NCBI GenBank assembly: GCA_963169355.1
Contig: CAUJCR010000001.1
Span: 124,001 to 188,000 of the forward strand
Origin: Bacteroidota bacterium
GTDB lineage: Bacteria > Bacteroidota > Bacteroidia > B-17B0 > Aurantibacillaceae
Direction: 5' to 3'
Length of the DNA: 64,000 bases
The notes beneath the pieces were generated by a model. That model saw nothing but the letters and a program-made list of their open reading frames with translations, did no database searches and was not told the DNA's origin. A program made the position numbers and the translations under genes. Positions 51,362-64,000 of the stretch are shown one piece after another (positions within the stretch are counted from its first letter, which is position 1; every line of letters begins with the position of its first letter).

Positions 51362-51718
51362 TTAGTAAGATTGAATTAACGACTCCAATGGAATATTTAA
51401 TTTTTCATGTAATTTGCGCACCATTTCTAAGGTAAGTTTGCGCTTGCGGCTAAGTATCTCGCTTACACGACCTTTATAACCAATAATATTAGCAAGGTCT
51501 TTTTGCTTATAGCCCATTTGTTCCATTCGGAATTTAATAGCTTCAATAGGGTCAGGAGCCTCGATATGATAATGCTCGTCTTCATATTTTTCAATAAGAA
51601 AACCTAAAATTTCAAGTTCATCACCTTCTTTGGTTTTCGGACGGGCATCAAAAATAACTTCCATACGTTTTAGAGCTTTTTGATACTCTTTTTCTGTTTT
51701 AATTAATTTTATATCCAT
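51362..51718 (-). CDS. higA: HigA-type XRE antitoxin
   Basis: A 118-residue protein. The C-terminal helix-turn-helix (MGYKQKDLANIIGYKGRVSEILSRKRKLTLEM) is of the XRE/HigA type. The N-terminal region contains the KEGDELEILGFLIEKYEDEH segment often seen in HigA of Bacteroidota. It follows the toxin gene by 11 bp and should repress the pair from the upstream palindrome. Confidence 0.87.
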   Translation of the reverse strand: MDIKLIKTEKEYQKALKRMEVIFDARPKTKEGDELEILGFLIEKYEDEHYHIEAPDPIEAIKFRMEQMGYKQKDLANIIGYKGRVSEILSRKRKLTLEMVRKLHEKLNIPLESLIQSY

Positions 51719-51729
51719 GACTTCAATTT

Positions 51730-52023
51730 TTAAATCTTATTTGCGTTTATCTTATCGTACTCTGCATGTGTTCCTATAAATCTAATCCACACCATTTTAT
51801 ATTTATAATTTATCCTTACTATTAACCGATAAGAGTTGCCTTTTATATTAAAAACAACCCTATTATCCGCCAAAAAACTTGCACTTGGGTAATTAACCTT
51901 TATATCCTTTGGGGTTTGCCAATCAGCCTCTATTGCCTCATCAAACCATGTTTTTAATTGCTGCTCACAATCTTCATGTTTGGTCCAAAATACCTTTAAT
52001 GTTTTTCTGGAAATTACCCTCAT
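51730..52023 (-). CDS. higB: HigB-type toxin
   Basis: A 97-residue HigB-family mRNA interferase with VFNIKGNSYRLIVRINYKYKMVWIRFIGTHAEYDKI, the beta-sheet core and C-terminal HAEYDKI end of the family. The toxin gene comes first in the operon, as is usual for higBA. It looks full length. Confidence 0.9.
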   Translation of the reverse strand: MRVISRKTLKVFWTKHEDCEQQLKTWFDEAIEADWQTPKDIKVNYPSASFLADNRVVFNIKGNSYRLIVRINYKYKMVWIRFIGTHAEYDKINANKI

Positions 52024-53380: not shown

Positions 53381-53668
53381 TTATTTGTATTTCTTTTTTG
53401 GACTGGTTTTACATGGAAATACACGCAAGATAAAAATTATTTTTTCTTCCACACTGTAAATAATTACATACGGATATTTTTTGATGTACATTTCTCGTAC
53501 ATACTTATATTTATTAGGATAGAACAAAGGATTTGTTTGTATATCATCTACACACTTAAATACATAATCTACAAATTTATTTCCTAACTGTTCCTGTTGT
53601 TTTTCATACCATTTTTTAGCCTTCTCTATATCTAAAATGGCTCTGTTCGTAATAACAAGCTGTTTCAT
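53381..53668 (-). CDS. RelE/ParE-superfamily toxin
   Basis: A 95-residue protein with RAILDIEKAKKWYEKQQEQLGNKFVDYVFKCVDDIQTNPLFYPNKYKYVREMYIKKYPYVIIYSV, continuous with the plasmid-stabilisation/ParE fold. It overlaps the antitoxin stop by one base. Its target (gyrase or mRNA) is not determined. It appears intact. Confidence 0.85.
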   Translation of the reverse strand: MKQLVITNRAILDIEKAKKWYEKQQEQLGNKFVDYVFKCVDDIQTNPLFYPNKYKYVREMYIKKYPYVIIYSVEEKIIFILRVFPCKTSPKKKYK

Positions 53669-53913
53669 TACTTTTTCATTTTTTTATAAATAATGTTTTT
53701 GGCTTGTTCTACAGTATAATATTTTAATTTACCCGATTTATGTTCTGCTAATGTCTTATTTAGTTTGTGTTTTTGTTCTGATGTTAACATACTGCTCTCA
53801 TCTTCACTTTGTAAAACTTCTTTCAACATGGCATAAATTGAACGTAAAATAGTTTCATTTTCTACATTATTTAATTGCTTCTTTATAGTTGTTTTTAATG
53901 CTGTTGCTGTCAT
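53668..53913 (-). CDS. Antitoxin partner of the RelE/ParE toxin
   Basis: An 81-residue helical protein with an N-terminal helix-rich domain (ETILRSIYAMLKEVL) and a Lys-rich tail (HKSGKLKYYTVEQAKNIIYKKMKK). This pattern is common to Bacteroidota antitoxins paired with ParE-like toxins. The C-terminal AE(H)KSGK and YTxEQ segments resemble known members. A promoter box lies 24 bases upstream. Confidence 0.78.
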   Translation of the reverse strand: MTATALKTTIKKQLNNVENETILRSIYAMLKEVLQSEDESSMLTSEQKHKLNKTLAEHKSGKLKYYTVEQAKNIIYKKMKK

Positions 53914-54654: not shown

Positions 54655-54668
54655 TTTTGTTTTTTATG

Positions 54669-54691
54669 CCGCAGGATTGCAAATCCAGCGG
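54669..54691. repeat. REP-like hairpin 1
   Basis: Outer stem CCGC/GCGG, an A-A mismatch, inner stem GGATT/AATCC and loop GCA, followed by AGCGGGG. Confidence 0.85.
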
Positions 54692-54862
54692 AGCGGGGGT
54701 TATTTATTGGGCGAAGCAAAGCAAGCCGATACCTTTAAAGACCCTGCTATGCTAAAACGGTTGAATGAGATTACCAACTTGCCTGATACGGATAAAGAGC
54801 ATATCCTTTACACCATCGACCATTTACTGGCTTCCGTTAAAACTAAATTAGCTTATAAATAA
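54692..54862 (+). pseudogene. C-terminal fragment of an XRE-type regulator
   Basis: The frame runs directly out of the REP tail and reads DPAMLKRLNEITNLPDTDKEHILYTIDHLLASV before stopping at 54860. This is the C-terminal helical end of XRE-family regulators of Bacteroidota. The helix-turn-helix itself is missing, replaced by the repeat. A terminator overlaps the stop codon. Confidence 0.6.
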
Positions 54863-54896
54863 AAAACCGTAGCTAACAAACTACGGTTTTTTTTTG
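54861..54896 (+). terminator. Terminator 1 of the REP array
   Basis: Stem CCGTAG/CTACGG with flanking A and T runs. The same stem recurs after the next two units with only the loop changed. Confidence 0.85.
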
Positions 54897-54905
54897 TTTT
54901 TTATG

Positions 54906-54928
54906 CCGCAGGATTGCAAATCCAGCGG
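54906..54928. repeat. REP-like hairpin 2
   Basis: Same 23 bases as hairpin 1 (inner stem GGATT/AATCC), followed by AGCGGGG. Confidence 0.85.
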
Positions 54929-54943
54929 AGCGGGGCGGATATT

Positions 54944-54966
54944 CCGCAGCATGACACATGCAGCGG
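54944..54966. repeat. REP-like hairpin 3
   Basis: Outer stem CCGC/GCGG retained; the inner stem is changed on both sides to GCATG/CATGC with loop ACA. Confidence 0.85.
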
Positions 54967-54970
54967 AGCG

Positions 54971-55228
54971 GGGAATGCTCAAAAAGCTATTAACTATTAT
55001 GATGAGCAACTTACTGGCTTAGGAGAAAAATTTAATACAGCCCTAGATAAGCATATTACGATTATCGCTAAAAACCCTTTTTATCAAATACGTTATAAGG
55101 ATTACAGAGCTTTACCTATAAAAAAATTCCCTTACACTATTGTATTTTACGTTAATGAGAATACTAAAACGGTATTTATTTCTGCTGTTTTTAACATCAA
55201 ACAAAATCCTAAAAAACTACCTAAATAA
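54971..55228 (+). pseudogene. ParE/RelE-type toxin without its N-terminus
   Basis: The frame emerges from hairpin 3 and reads AQKAINYYDEQLTGLGEKFN, then FYQIRYKDYRALPIKKFPYTIVFYV and the C-terminal ISAVFNIKQNPKK. This is the body of a ParE-family toxin, lacking the first 12-15 residues including the first strand. Upstream codons are repeat DNA. It has no obvious antitoxin. Likely inactive. Confidence 0.7.
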
Positions 55229-55259
55229 AAAAACCGCAGCTCTTAAACTACGGTTTTTG
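55229..55259 (+). terminator. Terminator 2 of the REP array
   Basis: CCGCAG/CTACGG stem (one mismatch relative to terminator 1) between A and T runs, directly after the toxin fragment stop. Confidence 0.7.
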
Positions 55260-55268
55260 CTTCGTATG

Positions 55269-55291
55269 CCGCAGCATTGCAAATGCAGCGG
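55269..55291. repeat. REP-like hairpin 4
   Basis: Outer stem CCGC/GCGG; the inner stem is GCATT/AATGC, again changed on both sides; loop GCA; AGCGGGG tail. Confidence 0.85.
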
Positions 55292-55300
55292 AGCGGGGGG

Positions 55301-55327
55301 AAACCGTAGCTATTAAACTACGGTTTT
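55301..55327 (+). terminator. Terminator 3 of the REP array
   Basis: CCGTAG/CTACGG stem as in terminator 1, placed immediately after the hairpin 4 tail with no gene fragment before it. Confidence 0.8.
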
Positions 55328-55337
55328 AATTTTTATG

Positions 55338-55360
55338 CCGCAGGATTGCAAATCAAGCGG
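55338..55360. repeat. REP-like hairpin 5
   Basis: Inner stem GGATT/AATCA has one broken pair; otherwise as hairpin 1. Confidence 0.8.
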
Positions 55361-55373
55361 AGCGGGCAGCCTG

Positions 55374-55569: not shown

Positions 55570-56418
55570 TTAGTTACCTTTAACGGTTTCAGTTACAACA
55601 TCTTTCTTCACCACGTTATAGGCCTTTACGGCATTTTTTGCATTCTTTGATAAATCGGAAGCATCAATAGTTTTATTGATTTTCTTGGTTCCAAAATCAG
55701 CTACTTTGTCGACTACTACACTTTTAACAACTGACTTTAGACCTTTTTCTTGATATTCTATACTATAATCGATGGCATCAGATATACCTTCAAACGCTTC
55801 TCCAGATTCAATTAATAATGGAGACAACTCAGCCGCAGGTGTAACAGCTGCAACGTATCCTGCATATTTTAAAGTTTTACCTACTACATTTGAACCAACG
55901 GATGCTACCTTTAAATCAGTTTTTGTAATTCTACCAATATTTGCTCCATCATTTCCACCTTCTAAACTAGCATCCCATCTCTTAAATGTCTCCCATTTTT
56001 TTAATGAGCTAAATTGCTTTGCTCTATCTGTGGCTCTTGAAACGAATTGGTCATCACTATTCTTTGGTGGATTATTTGCTGCATTTATCCAAAATGTTAC
56101 TGTTTTGATATCTTTAGCATCAACACTCCTTACTTGAGTACTTCCTCCAATCAATCCAATATACTTGCCATCGTTTGTGACGAATTTCTCAGTACCATCT
56201 AAATCAATACTCCTCATAACATCATTTTCCGCAAACGCATATGTACTATTCCATGCAAAGTGTTTAAATAACGGGTCTACAGATAAGAACCGTCCTAATG
56301 CAGGATTATAAATACGCATACCATAGTCCTGAGTACCTTGTCCTGTTCCTACGGTCTCTGGATCATTTTCTTTTCCGTTAAATCCATAACGGTAAGGATA
56401 TAAATACGGTGCTACCAA
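55570..56418 (-). CDS. Truncated RHS core protein with C-terminal tip domain
   Basis: A 282-residue protein. Residues 9-75 form the RHS-repeat-associated core (YGFNGKENDPETVG, DYGMRIYNPALGRFLSVDPL, YAFAENDVMRSIDLDG). The remaining 200 residues are a variable tip of unrecognised type, presumably the toxin part. The thousands of residues of YD repeats expected upstream are absent; the frame opens with a TTG. It may be an orphan tip or a fragment. A -7 box lies 60 bp upstream. Confidence 0.75.
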   Translation of the reverse strand: MVAPYLYPYRYGFNGKENDPETVGTGQGTQDYGMRIYNPALGRFLSVDPLFKHFAWNSTYAFAENDVMRSIDLDGTEKFVTNDGKYIGLIGGSTQVRSVDAKDIKTVTFWINAANNPPKNSDDQFVSRATDRAKQFSSLKKWETFKRWDASLEGGNDGANIGRITKTDLKVASVGSNVVGKTLKYAGYVAAVTPAAELSPLLIESGEAFEGISDAIDYSIEYQEKGLKSVVKSVVVDKVADFGTKKINKTIDASDLSKNAKNAVKAYNVVKKDVVTETVKGN

Positions 56419-56477
56419 ACATTCCCCTACCTTCTCAAACTATTACAAATACTGGGGTTTTCAAAGAACATGTAAAT

Positions 56478-56485
56478 CAAATTTA
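56478..56485 (-). promoter_or_regulatory. -7 promoter element upstream of the RHS tip gene
   Basis: The minus strand reads TAAATTTG, set in an imperfect inverted repeat (ACATGTAAAT with ATTTACAATGT). Confidence 0.45.
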
Positions 56486-56523
56486 CAATGTAAACATACA
56501 ATTTTTAATTGAGGTAAGCAAAT

Positions 56524-56549
56524 AAAAAAGCTCCAAAAATTTGGAGCTT
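56524..56549 (-). terminator. Terminator in the minus direction
   Basis: Stem AAGCTCCAAA/TTTGGAGCTT, 2-nt centre, followed on the minus strand by a run of T. It probably ends the recombinase transcripts and marks the edge of the mobile element. Confidence 0.7.
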
Positions 56550-56596
56550 AGGAGTTTTTTTATTATATTGTATGTAAACTTTTAAAACAAATTATT

Positions 56597-56821
56597 ATGA
56601 CAGTAGCACAATTAGACGCAGTTCAAAACGACCTTGAAAACAGTAGTACCGTTGCCCAAAACTTATCTGCTGAAATAGGAAAAATTCGGAACATGATGTA
56701 CGGAGTTAATTCTCAGGGGATGTTTACACCTGCACAAGTAGCACAGGAAAAAACAAAAGTAAAAACTGATATTGCTAATTTGATAATAGCATTGCAAAAC
56801 ATAAACAATCGGATTGTTTAG
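56597..56821 (+). CDS. Small helical protein of unknown function
   Basis: A 74-residue protein (TVAQLDAVQNDLENSST, later KTDIANLIIALQNINNRIV), probably a coiled-coil dimer. No family recognised. It is encoded opposite the recombinases at the element's edge. Confidence 0.5.
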   Translation: MTVAQLDAVQNDLENSSTVAQNLSAEIGKIRNMMYGVNSQGMFTPAQVAQEKTKVKTDIANLIIALQNINNRIV

Positions 56822-56831
56822 TTATTTCAAT

Positions 56832-57692
56832 TTATTTCAACGGATGCCACATATTGATTTTCTCTAACTGCTCGTTGATGTCGGTACGTTTGTATTGCTC
56901 GGTACTGCTCGGCCACTTATGACCAGCAAAGAGTTGTACGTCCTCAATACTTTCTTTTGATACATTGAGTTTATTAGCTATAACACTTTGCCGTATAGTG
57001 GTTGGGTTGAGGTTACGCTCTGGGTAGAGGTGCTTTAGCGGCTCAATCATGCTATGTATGCCGTCCACCGTTTCAGCAACACCACGTTGAGTTATGAGGA
57101 AACAATTTGTTGCTGACCTCAACAAGTTTTTTCGTGAGGTGTTGATATAGTCCAGCATTAGTTTTATTTGACTTGGTTTTAAATCAAGTGTTCTGGCTGC
57201 AAATTTCGGACTGCCTTTGATGTAGATTGTACCAGCATCCAAATCAATATCGTTTAACGTTAACCTACAAAGCTCGGAGCAAGCTAAGGCTTGGTAGATG
57301 AGCAATGATATAATAACCTTGTTCCGCAGTTCCAGATTAAAAAAGCGGTTTTCTCTGGTCATTAGCTGTTCTAATTCATTTGGACTAAAGAGGTCTTGCA
57401 ACTGTATTGGTTTCTTTTTTCTCCTGAGCTTAAAGTTTCTGCAAGGGTGGTCTTGGCGTTGGCCTGTTTCCAGTAGATAATCGTAGTAACGTTTGATGGC
57501 AGATAGTATCGGGCTTATCTGTGTGGCTTCGGTCTTGCTTTTTCTCAGGCTGTTTATGTACTCCGTAATATCTGCATAGTTTAAGGCTCTCGCATTCGGA
57601 CACTTCATTTTAAATACGTCCAGATAATATAGATAGGTTTTAGCTGTCTGACCTGTGTGGTGGCGGTAAATATATTGTTCAAGTGTTTCCAT
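56832..57692 (-). CDS. Tyrosine recombinase-like protein with degenerate active site
   Basis: A 286-residue XerC/D-type protein with a SAM-like N-terminal domain and a catalytic fold. The region-I Arg is Ala137 (ALACSEL in place of GLRxSEL). The HxLRH box reads TTIRQ (231-235), keeping Arg234 but losing both His. His258 and nucleophile Tyr267 remain (GHKW to EQYK). Strand cleavage on its own is doubtful. It starts 1 bp after the intact recombinase gene, so the two are likely partners. Confidence 0.82.
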   Translation of the reverse strand: METLEQYIYRHHTGQTAKTYLYYLDVFKMKCPNARALNYADITEYINSLRKSKTEATQISPILSAIKRYYDYLLETGQRQDHPCRNFKLRRKKKPIQLQDLFSPNELEQLMTRENRFFNLELRNKVIISLLIYQALACSELCRLTLNDIDLDAGTIYIKGSPKFAARTLDLKPSQIKLMLDYINTSRKNLLRSATNCFLITQRGVAETVDGIHSMIEPLKHLYPERNLNPTTIRQSVIANKLNVSKESIEDVQLFAGHKWPSSTEQYKRTDINEQLEKINMWHPLK

Positions 57693-57693
57693 A

Positions 57694-58620
57694 TTATCGG
57701 CTATGTGTTAAGAGTTGTTTCATTTTTCTTCGTCTGGCATAAACATGTACGGTGTCAATCTCACTATGCCCCATAAATTCCCGTACAAACTCTATGGTAG
57801 CTTTGTTATCCAATAGATGTACTGCGATACTATGACGTAAACAATGGAGGGTAATATCTTTATTAATGAGTTCTGTGTTTTGTGTTTTCTCAATCAGTTC
57901 TTTAAGTCGGGCATTGATGTGGTCGCCTTTCATCCGTTGGCCTTTATTGTTCACAAAAAATGCTTCGGTTCGTTGGTGCTGTGTCTGTTTAAAGTAAACG
58001 TGTCGCTCATTAACCAAATAGTCTTTTAAATCATTTACAAGTTTATTAGATAGAGGTATCTCTCTGCGTTTACCAAACTTTCCTTTTCTAACTATCAATA
58101 TCCCTCTGGTCAATTGTACATCAACAACATTGAGATTTTGTATTTCACTTCGCCTTGCACCGCATCCGTATGCAATAGCCAGCATCGCCTTATCCCGTTT
58201 GTTTTCACAAACGGTGTACAAGAGTTTTACCTCATCAATGCTTATGATTTGTCTTTGTTTACCTTCACTTCGGTTATGCTTAGGCAAGAGGATTTTTTTG
58301 TCAATCAAATTATTATCGAGCAGGTAATCAAAAAACAAATCTACCGCAAACATATTGCCTCCAATAGTTGAGCTGCTTAACAAACCTTCTTTTCTCATGT
58401 TGGGTCTTGTACTCAGATACTCATAATACTCAACCATATCCAACGGCTTTAACTTGTTAAGTTTTAGTTTACCTAAGTTTTCCAGATAGGCTAAAAACTC
58501 TTTCACGTTGTTCTGGTAGGTGCTTCCTGTTTGTCGGTAGCCCATTGCTTTGATTGCTTCATCAAATCCTTTTAACAGGAGTTGGTAGGTATGGGTATAT
58601 AGTTCGCCTCGTTTGGTCAT
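57694..58620 (-). CDS. Tyrosine recombinase/integrase
   Basis: A 308-residue XerD-type recombinase with an intact set: Arg156 in GARRSEI, a region Lys in RKGKFGKRREIPL, His259 and Arg262 in HCLRH, His285 in GHSEID and Tyr294 in VHVYARR. It is the probable integrase/excisionase of the element. Paired with the downstream degenerate homologue. Confidence 0.92.
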   Translation of the reverse strand: MTKRGELYTHTYQLLLKGFDEAIKAMGYRQTGSTYQNNVKEFLAYLENLGKLKLNKLKPLDMVEYYEYLSTRPNMRKEGLLSSSTIGGNMFAVDLFFDYLLDNNLIDKKILLPKHNRSEGKQRQIISIDEVKLLYTVCENKRDKAMLAIAYGCGARRSEIQNLNVVDVQLTRGILIVRKGKFGKRREIPLSNKLVNDLKDYLVNERHVYFKQTQHQRTEAFFVNNKGQRMKGDHINARLKELIEKTQNTELINKDITLHCLRHSIAVHLLDNKATIEFVREFMGHSEIDTVHVYARRRKMKQLLTHSR

Positions 58621-58729
58621 AGTGTTTTTTCTTTTGCTTTATATATGTACTTCTGGGAAACTGGGACGCTACGGGTCAAACCTATACTGGTAGTGAGTTC
58701 CAGCGTCCCAAAGTGCTTTTATTTACTCC

Positions 58730-61024
58730 TTAATCCTGTATTTGGTTTATCTGGCTAAGTAGTCCATCCTTTACCTTCTGTCTAACCTTTTCCATGTCAT
58801 CCCAGTAGCTTATCTGGTATTTATATCCTTTGTTTGCAGAGCCTTCGGCTATCTGGATATATTCCAAGTGTTTTAAGTCCTGTATGTATCTATCCACTTG
58901 GGAGCGGCTAAGGTTAAAAGCTTGCCTTACTTCTCTGGTGCTAAAATGATATTTACCAGAGCCGCTTTGTTTCTTGATGTAGCTTTTTAATTGCTCAAAA
59001 AACTGACGTAGGCTGCTATCGAGTTCATCAATCTTCCACATGATAGCATCAAACAATATTTCACAGGCCAGCTTTAAATCTTCTTTGGTTGATATTAAAC
59101 GGCCTTGCTCATCTTTGTTGCGTTGGTACTGATGCAACAAGGTGATTTGCTTTACAAAGTCTTGGTAATGGTTGTTTAACCGCCTCAACATCTTTGCCTC
59201 AACGGGTAGTTGTAATTTATCTGCATAACGGTTAACTACCTCATAAGGCTTCAATGTACGGATGCAGTTTTGTAATAGCTCTTTAGCTTGTTTGCTTGCT
59301 AAGGTATCCAATAGACCAGCGGTTTGTTTATTCTGGTACAGGATAATTCTTTTTGTCTGGTCTTCGCTTTCATTTACACCGAGTATAATGGAGCGGCTCA
59401 GATTATCAAAATAAATTTCTGCATGAGTTGTCGCTACAAGGCTTGCAAACTTTGCATTAACCCGTTTAACGGTTGATACCAATTGCCCCGATTTGTTTTT
59501 ATAAGTGGTGGAGCTACTCACAAAGCCAGCCGATTGCATTTCCCTAAAAGCAAACATTGCTTCTTCATCCAGCCCATCAATGTCCTGTATCAATACCAGT
59601 TTATTAATCAGGTCTTCATTTTTGTAGTGATATAATGACTTGCTGGTGATTCTGGTCATGTTGAGCAAATCCTCTGGCGGCATAAGATTAGCAATACCAT
59701 TCACCAAATGTGTTTTACCGCTTCCGCTTGTTCCTTGTATCAATCCATGCAAAGGATTAAGCATTTTGTAAGTGGATGCAATAACAAAGACCATTTTACG
59801 GTTGTTTTCTTCGCCAACGATACCGCTGGTTTCAATTAGCTTATCTATGCGTTGGATTAGATTTGCTTCGCTTAAAAACTCAATCGATTCTTTTTCTTTC
59901 TCTGGGGGTAAAAGATTTTGAGGCTTTTGTTTTGTCCCGTGTTCGGCTTCCAGTTGTTCATCTCGATATGCTTCCAAGAGGTCGGTGAGCTTTAATAGCT
60001 CTGCTTCAATTTCGCTCTGGTCAATCCCTTCACCTTCACTAATGGACTTAGCAAAGTTCACCAACTGTTGTCTGTCATATAAGTCGGGCTTTGCACGGTG
60101 TTTTCTTTTGGTGTTGAGTTCTTCAAAGTGTATGGTTGCTTTTAGGTTCCCTAAGTCGGTTGATAGATTACCCAACACATAGTATGTTCCTGTGCTTGCT
60201 TCATAGCTTAATTTACCTTCTGTAATTCGATTTAAACACGCTTCTGTCTGTTCAGTCGTAATTATCTCAGCCTGTCCTTTGGATTCATTTAAAAGCTGTT
60301 GTAAGCCCTCTAATCCGTAATTCACCCACATGTCATTTAGACTATGGTCTTCGGGTAAATTAATCCTTTTGATATTTACAGAGTGTAAAAAGTGCTTCAA
60401 TACTTCTGCTGAGGTTTCCGCTGGTCTATTTACCTCTGGTATTGCGATAATTTCATTAAGGTGTTTTAATGACATTACAGCCTCTAATGTTTCATCCGAC
60501 ATTCTACCTTCATTTAAAGCGATAACAGCATCCCTGTTGCCAAGTATTCGACTTTCAAGTATGGTTGCCGCATCCAATAAACTATCAGTTATATATAACT
60601 TCTCAGTTAACGGGTGTGGGTAGTTAGGATATATTCCTTCCTCATTGAGATACTGAGGCGTATGGTCTTTGGTAAAGATGCGGATTGCTCCAAAATTTAC
60701 CACCTCATTCAATTCGTTTCGGAGTGCAAAGATAATCGCCTCCTTACCAAAGCTGGTGTATGCCTTTAACTCTGGGCTTCTCACGGCTGCATTGCTTGGT
60801 ATTAAAAAACCAACACTTAGCAGCTCATCAATAAAATCCTGTTCCCTACGGTGGTGGGTTTGGCCAGAGCTAAAACATGCTCCTGTTCGTTCAATGGATA
60901 AACATTTGCTTTCGAGCCATTCTCTCGGTTCTTTAGTTTTAGCAGCCCTGATACCATTACTAAAGCTGACGTGTAGTGTTTTAAAAATCTCCTTTCTGTC
61001 TTTCATATCCATTTTTTTAGGCAT
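58730..61024 (-). CDS. Toprim-like and P-loop ATPase replication protein
   Basis: A 764-residue protein. The N-terminal part (about 20-240) resembles primase-Toprim proteins of mobile elements (FSSGQTHHRR, FALRNELNEVVNFGAI, LYITDSLLDAATIL). The usual Toprim acidic residues are not obvious (ITDSLLDA, then IAIPEVN). The central P-loop ATPase has Walker A GTSGSGKTH (431-439) and Walker B VLIQDIDG (477-484). A C-terminal winged helix (about 700-745, TREVRQAFNLSRSQVDRYI) likely binds DNA. Probable helicase/loader for the element. Its promoter is 228 bp upstream. Confidence 0.72.
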   Translation of the reverse strand: MPKKMDMKDRKEIFKTLHVSFSNGIRAAKTKEPREWLESKCLSIERTGACFSSGQTHHRREQDFIDELLSVGFLIPSNAAVRSPELKAYTSFGKEAIIFALRNELNEVVNFGAIRIFTKDHTPQYLNEEGIYPNYPHPLTEKLYITDSLLDAATILESRILGNRDAVIALNEGRMSDETLEAVMSLKHLNEIIAIPEVNRPAETSAEVLKHFLHSVNIKRINLPEDHSLNDMWVNYGLEGLQQLLNESKGQAEIITTEQTEACLNRITEGKLSYEASTGTYYVLGNLSTDLGNLKATIHFEELNTKRKHRAKPDLYDRQQLVNFAKSISEGEGIDQSEIEAELLKLTDLLEAYRDEQLEAEHGTKQKPQNLLPPEKEKESIEFLSEANLIQRIDKLIETSGIVGEENNRKMVFVIASTYKMLNPLHGLIQGTSGSGKTHLVNGIANLMPPEDLLNMTRITSKSLYHYKNEDLINKLVLIQDIDGLDEEAMFAFREMQSAGFVSSSTTYKNKSGQLVSTVKRVNAKFASLVATTHAEIYFDNLSRSIILGVNESEDQTKRIILYQNKQTAGLLDTLASKQAKELLQNCIRTLKPYEVVNRYADKLQLPVEAKMLRRLNNHYQDFVKQITLLHQYQRNKDEQGRLISTKEDLKLACEILFDAIMWKIDELDSSLRQFFEQLKSYIKKQSGSGKYHFSTREVRQAFNLSRSQVDRYIQDLKHLEYIQIAEGSANKGYKYQISYWDDMEKVRQKVKDGLLSQINQIQD

Positions 61025-61339
61025 AGTTATCTGAGCTTCGATTTTTACATCGAAAAAATTGACCGATTAGAAAAAATAAGGCAAGTTGATAACTGGACTT
61101 AGCCCAACATTTTCCTACGAGGGGTCTGGCCTCGCTGACATAACTATTTTATTTGAATTAGAGCCGAAAACTGGCATTTTCACACCGATTTTGGCTTAGA
61201 AAAGAGATTTTGGGTCATTTTTCGCCCATTTTCCCCGATTTTTTAGTGATGCAAAGGTACGTAATTATTTTGAATCTACCAAATTTTTCTTCAAAAATAT
61301 TTTGCCATGTCAAATATTATATGTATTCAAAGCACTTAA
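61025..61339. other. Leader region of the ATPase gene and tail of the resolvase gene
   Basis: No gene. Contains a minus-strand promoter at 61252-61283 and a small stem CGAGG/CCTCG near 61120 within the long leader. Confidence 0.5.
61252..61283 (-). promoter_or_regulatory. Promoter of the Toprim-like/ATPase gene
   Basis: On the minus strand a -33 TTTG (61280-61283) and -7 TACCTTTG (61252-61259) are separated by 20 bp, matching the Bacteroidota consensus. The resulting leader is about 220 nt. Confidence 0.65.
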
Positions 61340-61909
61340 TTAAGCTGCATAAGCTCCAACGGTAACATGGCTCAGGTTTAAAGTCTTTCCGATAACTCTA
61401 TTAGATAAGCCCTCCGACTTCATTAATTTAATACGGTCTATAATGGTTGTATCTATTTGCGGCCTGCCTCCTTTCTTTTTACTTCGAGCTAAACCAGCTT
61501 TTACACGTTCACTAATACGTACTTTCTCTTGCTTTGCCAATGTTGATAAGAGAGATATAACCACGTCTTTGAATATGCCGCAAGAATCTATGTACTGTTC
61601 CGTGTATGACTTGAAGCCTACACCGTAGCTTTCCAGTTGCTCCATATACTTTATAGCTGCTCTGGTTCCTTCACGTGTCCATCTATCAAGGCTCCAAAAC
61701 AAAACAAGGTCAAACTTACGCTTGGCGGCATCGGCAAACAGCTTCTTAAAAGCTGGACGGTCGGAAGTACCACCGCTCACCTCATCCATATACTCACCTG
61801 TTACCTTATAACCCATGCGTTCGCAAAACTCACGTAATACGATTAACTGATTATCGACATCCTGACCTTTATTGGTAGTTGATACTCGGACATAAATTGC
61901 TGTTCTCAT
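61340..61909 (-). CDS. Serine recombinase (resolvase family)
   Basis: A 189-residue small serine recombinase. The nucleophile is Ser10 in YVRVSTTNKGQ. Further blocks are DEVSGGTSDRPAFKKL and the Arg-containing WSLDRWTREG. A C-terminal helix-turn-helix (KKGGRPQIDTTIIDRI, then GLSNRVIGKTLNLSHVTVGAY) completes the protein. It could resolve co-integrates or dimers of the element. Confidence 0.92.
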   Translation of the reverse strand: MRTAIYVRVSTTNKGQDVDNQLIVLREFCERMGYKVTGEYMDEVSGGTSDRPAFKKLFADAAKRKFDLVLFWSLDRWTREGTRAAIKYMEQLESYGVGFKSYTEQYIDSCGIFKDVVISLLSTLAKQEKVRISERVKAGLARSKKKGGRPQIDTTIIDRIKLMKSEGLSNRVIGKTLNLSHVTVGAYAA

Positions 61910-62006
61910 ATTCTTACTTTTTTAATGGTGGTCAAAAAACCTATCTTTTTTTTGGTCTTAAAACCCCTGATTTTATTGGTGGTGATTTTTAAAATTTTAC
62001 TGGTAA

Positions 62007-62279
62007 CTAAACAAGTGTTTTCTTACCAGCCTCATCAAACTTCTTAACCAGTATTTCAGCAAGAAAACGCAGGTACTCAACTATGCTTTTATTGTAAAAA
62101 TCCAGCTTACGAAGTGTCTGGCTAATTACTTGTTGTTCGTTGAGCGGTGCGTTATGGATTGCTTCAATAACAAAATCGGTGTCAATGAAGTGAGTTAGTC
62201 CGTTGGTGTCGGTTATCTCAAACATGGTGTAATTGATTTGTTTTTCTTGAAAGAAGTTGCTTAGATATGTTTTGCTCAT
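62007..62279 (-). CDS. Hypothetical protein of the mobile element
   Basis: A 90-residue, mostly helical protein (TDTNGLTHFIDTDFVIEAI, later YNKSIVEYLRFLAEILVKKFDE). No family recognised. It lies between the resolvase gene and the repeat-rich divergent region. Confidence 0.55.
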   Translation of the reverse strand: MSKTYLSNFFQEKQINYTMFEITDTNGLTHFIDTDFVIEAIHNAPLNEQQVISQTLRKLDFYNKSIVEYLRFLAEILVKKFDEAGKKTLV

Positions 62280-62391
62280 GGCTCTGAATGGGTTGATTTT
62301 CCTGGTATAAAGGTAAAGCCCTGGATTTGAACTTCCTACAAAAACCCTGGTTTTCCTGGGGTTTCACGGTATTGAGCTGTTAAGCTTTACA

Positions 62392-62581
62392 AAAAGTTCA
62401 TTTATGATTTTCTCTGCGTGCCTTTCAGGTGTTGAGGTTCAGAGGTTTTTCGAGTTCATTTAGGACACTATAAGCCAGCGAAGCGACCCACCCCGTGCCT
62501 TATAGTGTCCTTTTTTATCCTTAAAAATCTCTGTCCCCTATGGTATTGTTGAGGTACGTGGATTTTCATAAATGAACTTTT
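62392..62581. repeat. Large inverted repeat with 16-bp perfect arms
   Basis: AAAAGTTCATTTATGA at 62392-62407 is the exact reverse complement of 62566-62581, enclosing 158 bp that itself contains a 13-bp-arm hairpin. Confidence 0.75.
62462..62516 (+). terminator. Long-stem hairpin with 13-bp arms and T-tract
   Basis: AGGACACTATAAG (62462-62474) pairs with 62499-62511, around a 24-nt GC-rich loop, followed by T residues on the plus strand. It could be a terminator or a structured origin element. Confidence 0.6.
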
Positions 62582-62612
62582 AGATTATTTTCAGAAATCT
62601 TGTGCTTACCTA

Positions 62613-62641
62613 TTGACATTTTCCACTTATTTCAGTATACT
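62613..62641 (+). promoter_or_regulatory. Sigma-70-consensus promoter of the polymerase gene
   Basis: TTGACA (62613-62618), exactly 17 bp, then TATACT (62636-62641). It points at the polymerase gene, 116 bases upstream of the GTG. It is unlike the TAnnTTTG boxes elsewhere in the window. Confidence 0.55.
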
Positions 62642-62676
62642 TAATAAAAGCTTATCCAAGATGGGCTTTGCTGGTT

Positions 62677-62700
62677 CCTATCGGGGTTGCTCCCGATAGG
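62677..62700. promoter_or_regulatory. Leader hairpin before the polymerase gene
   Basis: CCTATCGGG/CCCGATAGG, 9-bp perfect stem with a 6-nt loop, lies in the predicted leader, not followed by T residues. Confidence 0.6.
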
Positions 62701-62756
62701 TCTCTGTCCAGTTAGGATAGAGAAAAGCATAACATAAAACAGAGATTCAATGAAAA

Positions 62757-64000
62757 GTGAAAAAACAAAAACAGTTCAGGCGTTACATTCCCGTAAAACT
62801 TAAAGAAGCCTTAGACCAATTAAGCTATGAGCGTAAAGATGACCTTTACACTATTATAGACCTTATTTCCCGAAAGGAAATTTATTTTAAATCGGATTAC
62901 CAGAACCGACACGGGTACACCGAAATATCAAAAGCTCAGTTTAAAGAATACATTGCGAGTAGCGAACACCTGAGCAATGGGTTACAGTTCCTTATTGATA
63001 ATAAACTATTGCTGCAAAATCCATTTTACATAATTGGTGTGGAATCAAAAAAATATAAGATACCCAGAGAGTATTTAGGCAAGACCGTTCCAATTACCAT
63101 AAGAGATAAGAACATTAATAAACGCATCAGCGATAAGATTAAACGAAACAAAAAGATGAAAGCAAAAAACTTAGAATTTGCTAAGACCGAGTATTACAAA
63201 ACATTTAAGATTGATATTGAAGGAGCAAGGCAAGCGATATTAAACAAGACGGTAACTGAAATTAAAAGCCTTTGTTACCGATTAAATTTAATTTACAGCG
63301 ATAAGGATGTATTAGATATTATTGAGTGTAAGAATGATTATATAAAGACACGCTTTTGTATCATGCTACATAAAGAAGGTTATGAACTGGATAACATTAT
63401 GCACCGTTACATGATATATAATACACGTATTAACGCTATTAATGACGGTTTCCTGTTCTTTAAGCGTAACAGCACCAATGGAAGACTTGACACCAATCTG
63501 ACATCGTTACCAAGCTTTTTAAGACCGTTTTTAATTGCTTCGGAAAAGTTAATGAACATTGATATAAAGAACTCACAACCATATTTCTTATACACGCTTA
63601 TCATGCACAAGTCAGAGATTGACCAAACGGAGTTAAAAAGATATGCGGAGCTGGTAATCGGTGGAAGCTTTTACGAGTATCTGGCAGAGCAATACAAAAA
63701 ACAAACTGGTTACACCAGAGAACGACACCAGATGAAAAACATGTTGTTTAAAATCTTCTTTTCGAGAGTGAATAGCTATAAAGAACAAAAACAATTCTTT
63801 GGTGGTTTGTTCCCAACGATTATGAATCACATTAACCAGACCAATGAAGAAAAGCATAATACTTTATCTATCCAGCTTCAAACAAAAGAATCATTTACGG
63901 TGTTGGATATAATCTTGCCATTGTTAGAGAAGCAAGGCATAAGACCTTATACTATACATGATAGCTTTGTATGTAAGGAATCTGAGGCAATGACTATAAA
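62757..64000 (+). CDS. Family A-type polymerase of the transposon/virus (TV-Pol) group, 3' end cut by window
   Basis: An open frame of 414 codons runs from GTG 62757 to the edge; an in-frame TGA just upstream makes this the first possible start. Three polymerase motifs appear in order. Motif A is NIDIKNSQPYFL (Asp269). Motif B-like is RERHQMKNMLFKIFFSR (Arg321/Arg323, Lys327). Motif C is YTIHDSFV (His401-Asp402-Ser403), as in T7 RNA polymerase and Pol I relatives. There is no exonuclease domain. This fits the TV-Pol family described from mobile elements and Sputnik-like viruses, proposed to combine priming and DNA synthesis. Identification rests on motifs read by eye. Confidence 0.75.
   Translation, partial: MKKQKQFRRYIPVKLKEALDQLSYERKDDLYTIIDLISRKEIYFKSDYQNRHGYTEISKAQFKEYIASSEHLSNGLQFLIDNKLLLQNPFYIIGVESKKYKIPREYLGKTVPITIRDKNINKRISDKIKRNKKMKAKNLEFAKTEYYKTFKIDIEGARQAILNKTVTEIKSLCYRLNLIYSDKDVLDIIECKNDYIKTRFCIMLHKEGYELDNIMHRYMIYNTRINAINDGFLFFKRNSTNGRLDTNLTSLPSFLRPFLIASEKLMNIDIKNSQPYFLYTLIMHKSEIDQTELKRYAELVIGGSFYEYLAEQYKKQTGYTRERHQMKNMLFKIFFSRVNSYKEQKQFFGGLFPTIMNHINQTNEEKHNTLSIQLQTKESFTVLDIILPLLEKQGIRPYTIHDSFVCKESEAMTI

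Follow-up and report, generated by a model that had tools for sequence, protein, structure and literature searches.

Gene content and limits of the element

The 64,000-nucleotide stretch of DNA analysed here, referred to as the window, forms part of contig C1 (285 kb) of a 3.2-Mb draft genome of a Bacteroidota bacterium (G000:C1:124,001-188,000). Its right-hand end carries most of an element of about 11.2 kb that is associated with Rhs polymorphic-toxin genes. The whole element lies on the minus strand at ~56,395-67,570 (G000:C1:180,395-191,570), with the part 56,395..64,000 inside the window; positions above 64,000 are window equivalents. Ordinary chromosomal genes are found on contig C1 to the right of the element. 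The features of the element and of its left border are:

55,570-56,418, minus strand: displaced Rhs core with old tip (RHS1); Rhs_assc_core 2e-11, core hidden Markov model (HMM) 1e-24; almost no reading frame before the core; adjoins the element, outside it
56,597-56,821, plus strand: 74-aa open reading frame (ORF), convergent with TyrB; from the ORF list, no significant family match
56,832-57,692, minus strand: TyrB, tyrosine recombinase, 286 aa; PF00589 4e-13
57,694-58,620, minus strand: TyrA, tyrosine recombinase, 308 aa; PF00589 1e-32
58,730-61,024, minus strand: primase-helicase-like P-loop protein, 764 aa; from model, Foldseek and family alignment
61,340-61,909, minus strand: small serine recombinase of the resolvase/invertase type, 189 aa; PF00239 1e-32
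62,007-62,279, minus strand: 90-aa protein; phrog_6004 4e-12
62,280-62,756, no strand: non-coding gap between divergent genes, with inverted repeats (one perfect pair of 16 nt, another of 38 nt at 74%)
62,757-64,172, plus strand, crossing the window end: family A (PolA-like) polymerase, 471 aa; from motifs, profile comparison and model
64,742-65,458, minus strand, beyond the window: SHOCT-domain protein
65,470-65,736, minus strand, beyond the window: possible lipoprotein
65,812-66,054, plus strand, beyond the window: helix-turn-helix (HTH) regulator
66,184-66,678, minus strand, beyond the window: probable immunity gene (164-aa ORF)
66,675 to ~67,570, minus strand, beyond the window: Rhs core with Tox-MPTase2 (metallopeptidase toxin) tip; Tox-MPTase2 E 3e-20

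Read in its own direction, the unit begins with the second half of an Rhs core and its Tox-MPTase2 tip, followed by the probable immunity gene, the HTH regulator on the opposite strand, the cargo genes, the polymerase and serine recombinase, the primase-helicase, TyrA and TyrB, and it ends at the junction into the displaced core and old tip. An earlier note on the window had described two tandem tyrosine recombinases, a P-loop protein, a small serine recombinase and a polymerase lying together, with genes diverging from a repeat-rich gap. All of these are present, the fold of the polymerase being that of family A, and the gap, with its inverted repeats, is a possible replication origin. The note had also seen no conjugation, capsid or transposase gene, and library scans of element proteins, including those encoded beyond 64 kb, agreed in giving no match to relaxase, capsid or transposase families and none to phage structural genes. 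The limits of 56,520..64,000 proposed there have to be corrected: the left end is at ~56,395, the start of an Rhs core, and the right end is at ~67,570, with the Rhs tip and the probable immunity gene lying beyond the window.

These limits follow from two Rhs cores on the same strand that bracket the element, at 56,194-56,394 and 67,359-67,553; the core starts, 56,394 and 67,553, are 11,159 bp apart. Contig C54 of the same genome carries an uninterrupted paralogue cassette, in which a head matching that of the window (94%, with its end at 67,571) is followed 14 nt on by an RHS1-type core (80.5%, from 56,394). There is no element between head and core in this paralogue, which puts the element junctions at ~56,394 and ~67,571. 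Further copies of the head, on contigs C34, C30 and C50, run into other cores and tips. The short Rhs head itself (67,571-67,797; L002 15571-15797) contains a perfect palindrome and recurs as 85-96% repeats on C30, C34, C50 and C54, followed in each case by a different core and tip. The earlier note had suggested searching for the right end, for flanking direct repeats and for empty sites in related genomes. The right end was located as given above, and no direct repeat was found in the DNA near 56.5 kb beyond an A-rich match, which was rejected since it is common to another terminator-like palindrome. In the closest species (G074) there is no clean empty site, the right flank being colinear from 67,744 onward only, with a different gene beside it; an uninterrupted arrangement is provided by the C54 paralogue of the genome itself.

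A conserved trio of primase-helicase, TyrA and TyrB

The primase-helicase, TyrA and TyrB form a fixed block, in this order and on one strand, in the window and in most of 72 named loci, nearly all from Bacteroidota and many from Flavobacterium. The helicase was found in 28 of 345 genomes of the class and in 4 of 20 genomes of the host genus, and TyrA and TyrB adjoin it in nearly all loci fetched. A single-sequence helicase query against viral contigs retrieved no relative. The trio is present on chromosomes as well as on plasmids. The serine recombinase and the polymerase, on the other hand, are rare in related trio loci and absent from most; they are optional additions outside the conserved core.

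The model of the P-loop protein (pLDDT 87.5) gave Foldseek matches to MCM helicases and to the DnaG catalytic core, which together with the family alignment point to a DnaG-like toprim part with degenerate active-site acids, followed by an MCM-like AAA+ domain. A replacement of a lost primase by the polymerase was considered and is not claimed, since in an alignment the relatives that lack the polymerase also appear to have degenerate toprim acids. TyrA possesses the full catalytic set, with R, K, H, R, H and Y invariant in 77/77 family members. The catalytic columns of 74 TyrB members show that Arg, His and Tyr have been kept, whereas the first Arg and the His of HxxR have been lost family-wide. 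Because the TyrB family lacks these residues and the TyrA set is complete, it is suggested that both proteins form a mixed complex with one canonical enzyme. An identity with GmtY of the gamma-mobile-trio was rejected, as only a weak generic recombinase match was obtained.

Association with Rhs genes

Using a core HMM seeded on the two Rhs fragments of the window and trained on trio loci, Rhs cores were identified around the trio in most loci. Of the 62 TyrB genes followed by 2 kb or more of sequence, 50 have an Rhs core on their own strand, usually headless, no more than 2 kb downstream; a core on the opposite strand was found for none. Overall, 99 core hits are on the strand of the trio and 6 on the other. 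A control of 30 loci from the same class (478 kb), including polymerase-bearing elements and host chromosome, contained 0 cores, and all 16 trio loci that had been fetched before Rhs was suspected have one. The NCBI Rhs_assc_core model matched the three examples tested (3/3), the tip protein of the window itself remaining below its cut-off, and the RefSeq annotation of the Aureispira and Aureibacter plasmids independently reports the same gene order.

The cores on the two sides of the element differ in what precedes them. A median of 6 in-frame codons was found before the cores downstream of TyrB, while in other loci than the window the frames of upstream cores, where enough sequence is present, are open for hundreds to 2,671 codons, often for about 850-2,670. 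Related loci contain 68 headless and 17 attached tips. The tips are diverse: 19 Pfam families, mostly toxin or hydrolase domains, were identified in 89 tips, and many tips have no family match. The tip of the window element is related to a headless tip in locus L256 (59%) and to a tip on an 885-codon frame in L301 (37%).

Tandem copies and signs of mobility

Some loci contain near-identical tandem copies of the whole unit. In four records these copies join inside conserved Rhs codons, namely, VDPLAE (L308, Flavobacterium covae), DYYPFG (L049), YELSNHLGNV (Aureispira) and YGFNGKE (Aureibacter), and the tandem unit copies of the Aureispira and Aureibacter plasmids (L312, L313) are exact or near exact. 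In addition, F. cupreum and F. circumlabens share a 9,483-bp stretch with the trio that is 99.95% identical, compared with 96.2% for their rpoB regions; the identity stops within an Rhs core, at the YNGKE motif.

The polymerase

The Pfam, NCBIfam and PHROG libraries hold no name for the polymerase family of the window, and searches of PDB sequences yielded no useful relative. Its assignment to family A is based on several lines of evidence. An alignment with relatives contains the family A motifs, i.e., the catalytic Asp residues and an RxxxK-type fingers motif, of which the Lys is conserved and the Arg is present in part of the family only. A profile comparison (hhalign) aligned the protein in collinear order with PolA across its catalytic region (E 1.4e-5, probability 80). 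The AlphaFold model, which covers 414 of 471 residues (pLDDT 87), had its best Foldseek match, at E 7.7e-5, to family A DNA polymerases, and VIA-align gave Z scores of 11.6 to Pol theta (5.4 A, 262 residues) and 11.3 to Klenow (4.8 A, 256 residues) for residues ~125-414. A T7-like RNA polymerase was considered on account of an HDS motif and rejected, given a profile probability of 0.2 versus 80 for PolA and best solved-structure matches that are DNA polymerases. Weak Foldseek matches of the model to winged-helix repressors suggest that the N-terminus is perhaps a winged-helix, DNA-binding region.

Relatives of the polymerase were found in 26 of 345 class genomes, on a Hymenobacter plasmid, in megaphage records and, by alignment search, in at least 115 matched viral contigs; the alignments are not conserved enough for a genome-wide scan. 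The nearest described family is TV-Pol, minimal family A polymerases that occur in mobile elements, including those of Bacteroidetes, beside a gamma-delta resolvase or a lambda-type integrase (Iyer et al. 2008, PMC2579912). One listed TV-Pol carrier, Microcystis phage Ma-LMM01, gave no significant match in 150 of its 162 kb.

Comparison with known systems

Tip exchange of the kind envisaged here was proposed by Jackson et al. (2009, PMC2935791) as "C-terminal displacement" of Rhs tips, for which a circular intermediate was suggested and no recombinase was known to travel with Rhs. The present locus has the same arrangement, with a new tip joined to the rhs core and the old core plus tip downstream, headless and in the same orientation (RHS1, 55,570-56,418), but differs in that the tip is accompanied by a dedicated pair of recombinases and by a replication protein. 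Integrase-like genes have been noted in bee gut bacteria, where they adjoin Rhs toxins, and in orphan toxin-immunity arrays of contact-dependent growth inhibition (CDI) systems (PMC5727410, PMC4927057); the passages concerned define no element, attachment site or replication module. A tyrosine recombinase accompanies immunity genes against antibacterial toxins also in the rAID arrays of Bacteroidota (PMC12247911), and XerC/D genes beside polyimmunity loci are a related observation. However, rAID collects orphan immunity genes, whereas here tip, probable immunity gene, recombinases and replication protein form one unit inside a toxin gene.

Among mobile elements, the staphylococcal cassette chromosome (SCC/SCCmec) is likewise a chromosomal cassette with an MCM-like helicase and, in some types, a family A polymerase primase, CcPol-MP, which is counted among the TV-Pols and has been shown to prime DNA (PMC7581432). 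SCC differs in using large serine recombinases and inserting at the end of rlmH, as opposed to the tyrosine pair, the Rhs cores and the serine recombinase of just 189 aa found here. In the PolA-SSB primase (CcPol-MP), a gene for an OB-fold single-stranded DNA-binding protein (SSB) lies between polymerase and helicase in one operon; the 90-aa ORF near the window polymerase is on the other strand from it. For TV-Pol elements no Rhs target has been described, and the polymerase is optional in trio elements. Integrative mobilizable and conjugative elements are set apart by a relaxase and an oriT; in a search that covered the first of these, no relaxase family was matched among the element proteins scanned. 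In the open-access literature no paper describing the element was found (subscription literature was outside the search).

Enterobacter and Paraburkholderia plasmids (L315, L314) were observed to carry, next to hemagglutinin (CdiA-type) or other toxin-like genes, a toprim/CHC2 protein, one XerC-like recombinase and, on the opposite strand, an HTH gene. These proteobacterial plasmids hint that the strategy may extend to a further class of toxins, and they are a possible counterpart.

A probable integrative element that targets Rhs genes and carries pieces of them

We consider it very probable (roughly 0.85) that these genes make up the core of an integrating mobile element whose targets, like part of its cargo, are pieces of Rhs polymorphic-toxin genes. 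Several points weigh against this. Excision as a circle and transfer are predicted steps, and the crossover points are approximate. For 12 of the 62 TyrB genes the 2-kb range holds no core; in several of these cases one lies at 2-6 kb. The core HMM stems from the window and the trio loci, although the NCBI Rhs model and the RefSeq annotation agree with it on the examples checked. Finally, the resident Rhs head at the window locus is short and the upstream core is not in a full-length resident rhs gene; because of this short head, the window copy may sit in an orphan cassette, and the locus may fail to deliver its new tip.

The almost constant location of the trio at Rhs loci would also fit a resident diversification system, in which recombinases and helicase are fixed in Rhs loci and shuffle local orphan tips with no mobility of their own; the rAID recombinase may be compared, and tyrosine recombinases with immunity arrays are known in Bacteroidales. 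We hold such a system to be unlikely: the helicase is patchily distributed (4 of 20 species of the genus), tandem duplications take in the entire unit with its trio, near-identical copies exist in two species, the trio occurs on chromosomes and on plasmids, and local shuffling would have no need of a dedicated primase-helicase. Tips could furthermore be exchanged by RecA-dependent homologous recombination between Rhs cores, with the trio as an unrelated element carried between them by chance. Homologous recombination with circular intermediates was proposed by Jackson et al. 2009 (PMC2935791), and Rhs cores are indeed repeated in the host genome. Nevertheless, the two flanking cores often show no more than distant similarity, the junctions of tandem copies lie in a small number of short conserved motifs, and the trio is a fixed block at these sites, with the TyrA catalytic residues intact in 77/77 members, all of which renders this explanation quite improbable.

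The earlier note had proposed a plasmid-like replicon, with tyrosine recombination for its integration and serine recombination for its resolution. The integrating nature, the element's own replication genes and the tyrosine recombinases have held up, as indicated by the conservation of the trio and by the tandem and two-species copies, while the Rhs target and the cargo had been missed. Taken as a generic TV-Pol element with Rhs as a chance neighbour, this proposal is hardly credible: TV-Pol elements with resolvase or integrase neighbours have been described (PMC2579912) and relatives of the polymerase do occur in other mobile contexts, but the Rhs association is far above the control, and most related elements lack the polymerase and the serine recombinase.

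For the integrative Rhs element, the following cycle is proposed. TyrA together with TyrB would excise the element as a circle, which the DnaG-MCM-like protein, here perhaps aided by the polymerase, would replicate, a step that may include priming. The recombinases would then act at conserved codons of a resident rhs gene and insert the circle there, as shown indirectly by the junctions that lie in those codons. Insertion would fuse the head of the resident rhs gene in frame to the new tip, which may then be delivered, and would push the old core and tip downstream in headless form, which is the arrangement seen. Repeated rounds of insertion would generate the tandem arrays that are observed, and the serine recombinase may resolve multimers.

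Neighbouring sequence

To the left of the element, the region 54,660-55,370 of the window contains several copies of a short repeat (ATGCCGCAGGATTGCAAATCCAGCGGAGCGGG) between small ORFs, and related copies are found on many contigs of the genome. Two small gene pairs, at 53,381-53,913 and 51,362-52,023, resemble, by eye and from sequence, RelE/ParE- and HigBA-type toxin-antitoxin pairs.

Implications for toxin exchange

The mechanism of Rhs (and CDI) tip exchange has been an open question since displaced tips were described. The present element offers candidate enzymes, attachment sites and a replication module for the exchange of Rhs tips, which opens the question to direct tests in laboratory strains. 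It also provides a rule for finding new toxin-immunity pairs, which is to search between an Rhs core and the toprim-recombinase block. The chances are about even that the element belongs to a class, so far undefined, whose members replicate themselves, possess a DnaG-MCM primase-helicase and a tyrosine recombinase, insert into conserved polymorphic-toxin coding sequence and replace the toxin end, in Rhs genes of Bacteroidota and, with one XerC-like recombinase, in CdiA-type genes of Proteobacteria. If such a class exists, toxin diversification would be an activity of mobile elements and not of host recombination. The element may be how Bacteroidota exchange weapons, each insertion bringing a new toxin end and a probable antidote gene. 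It also points to a way in which mobile DNA may gain entry, namely by supplying the host with a new toxin while shielding it through the matching immunity gene.
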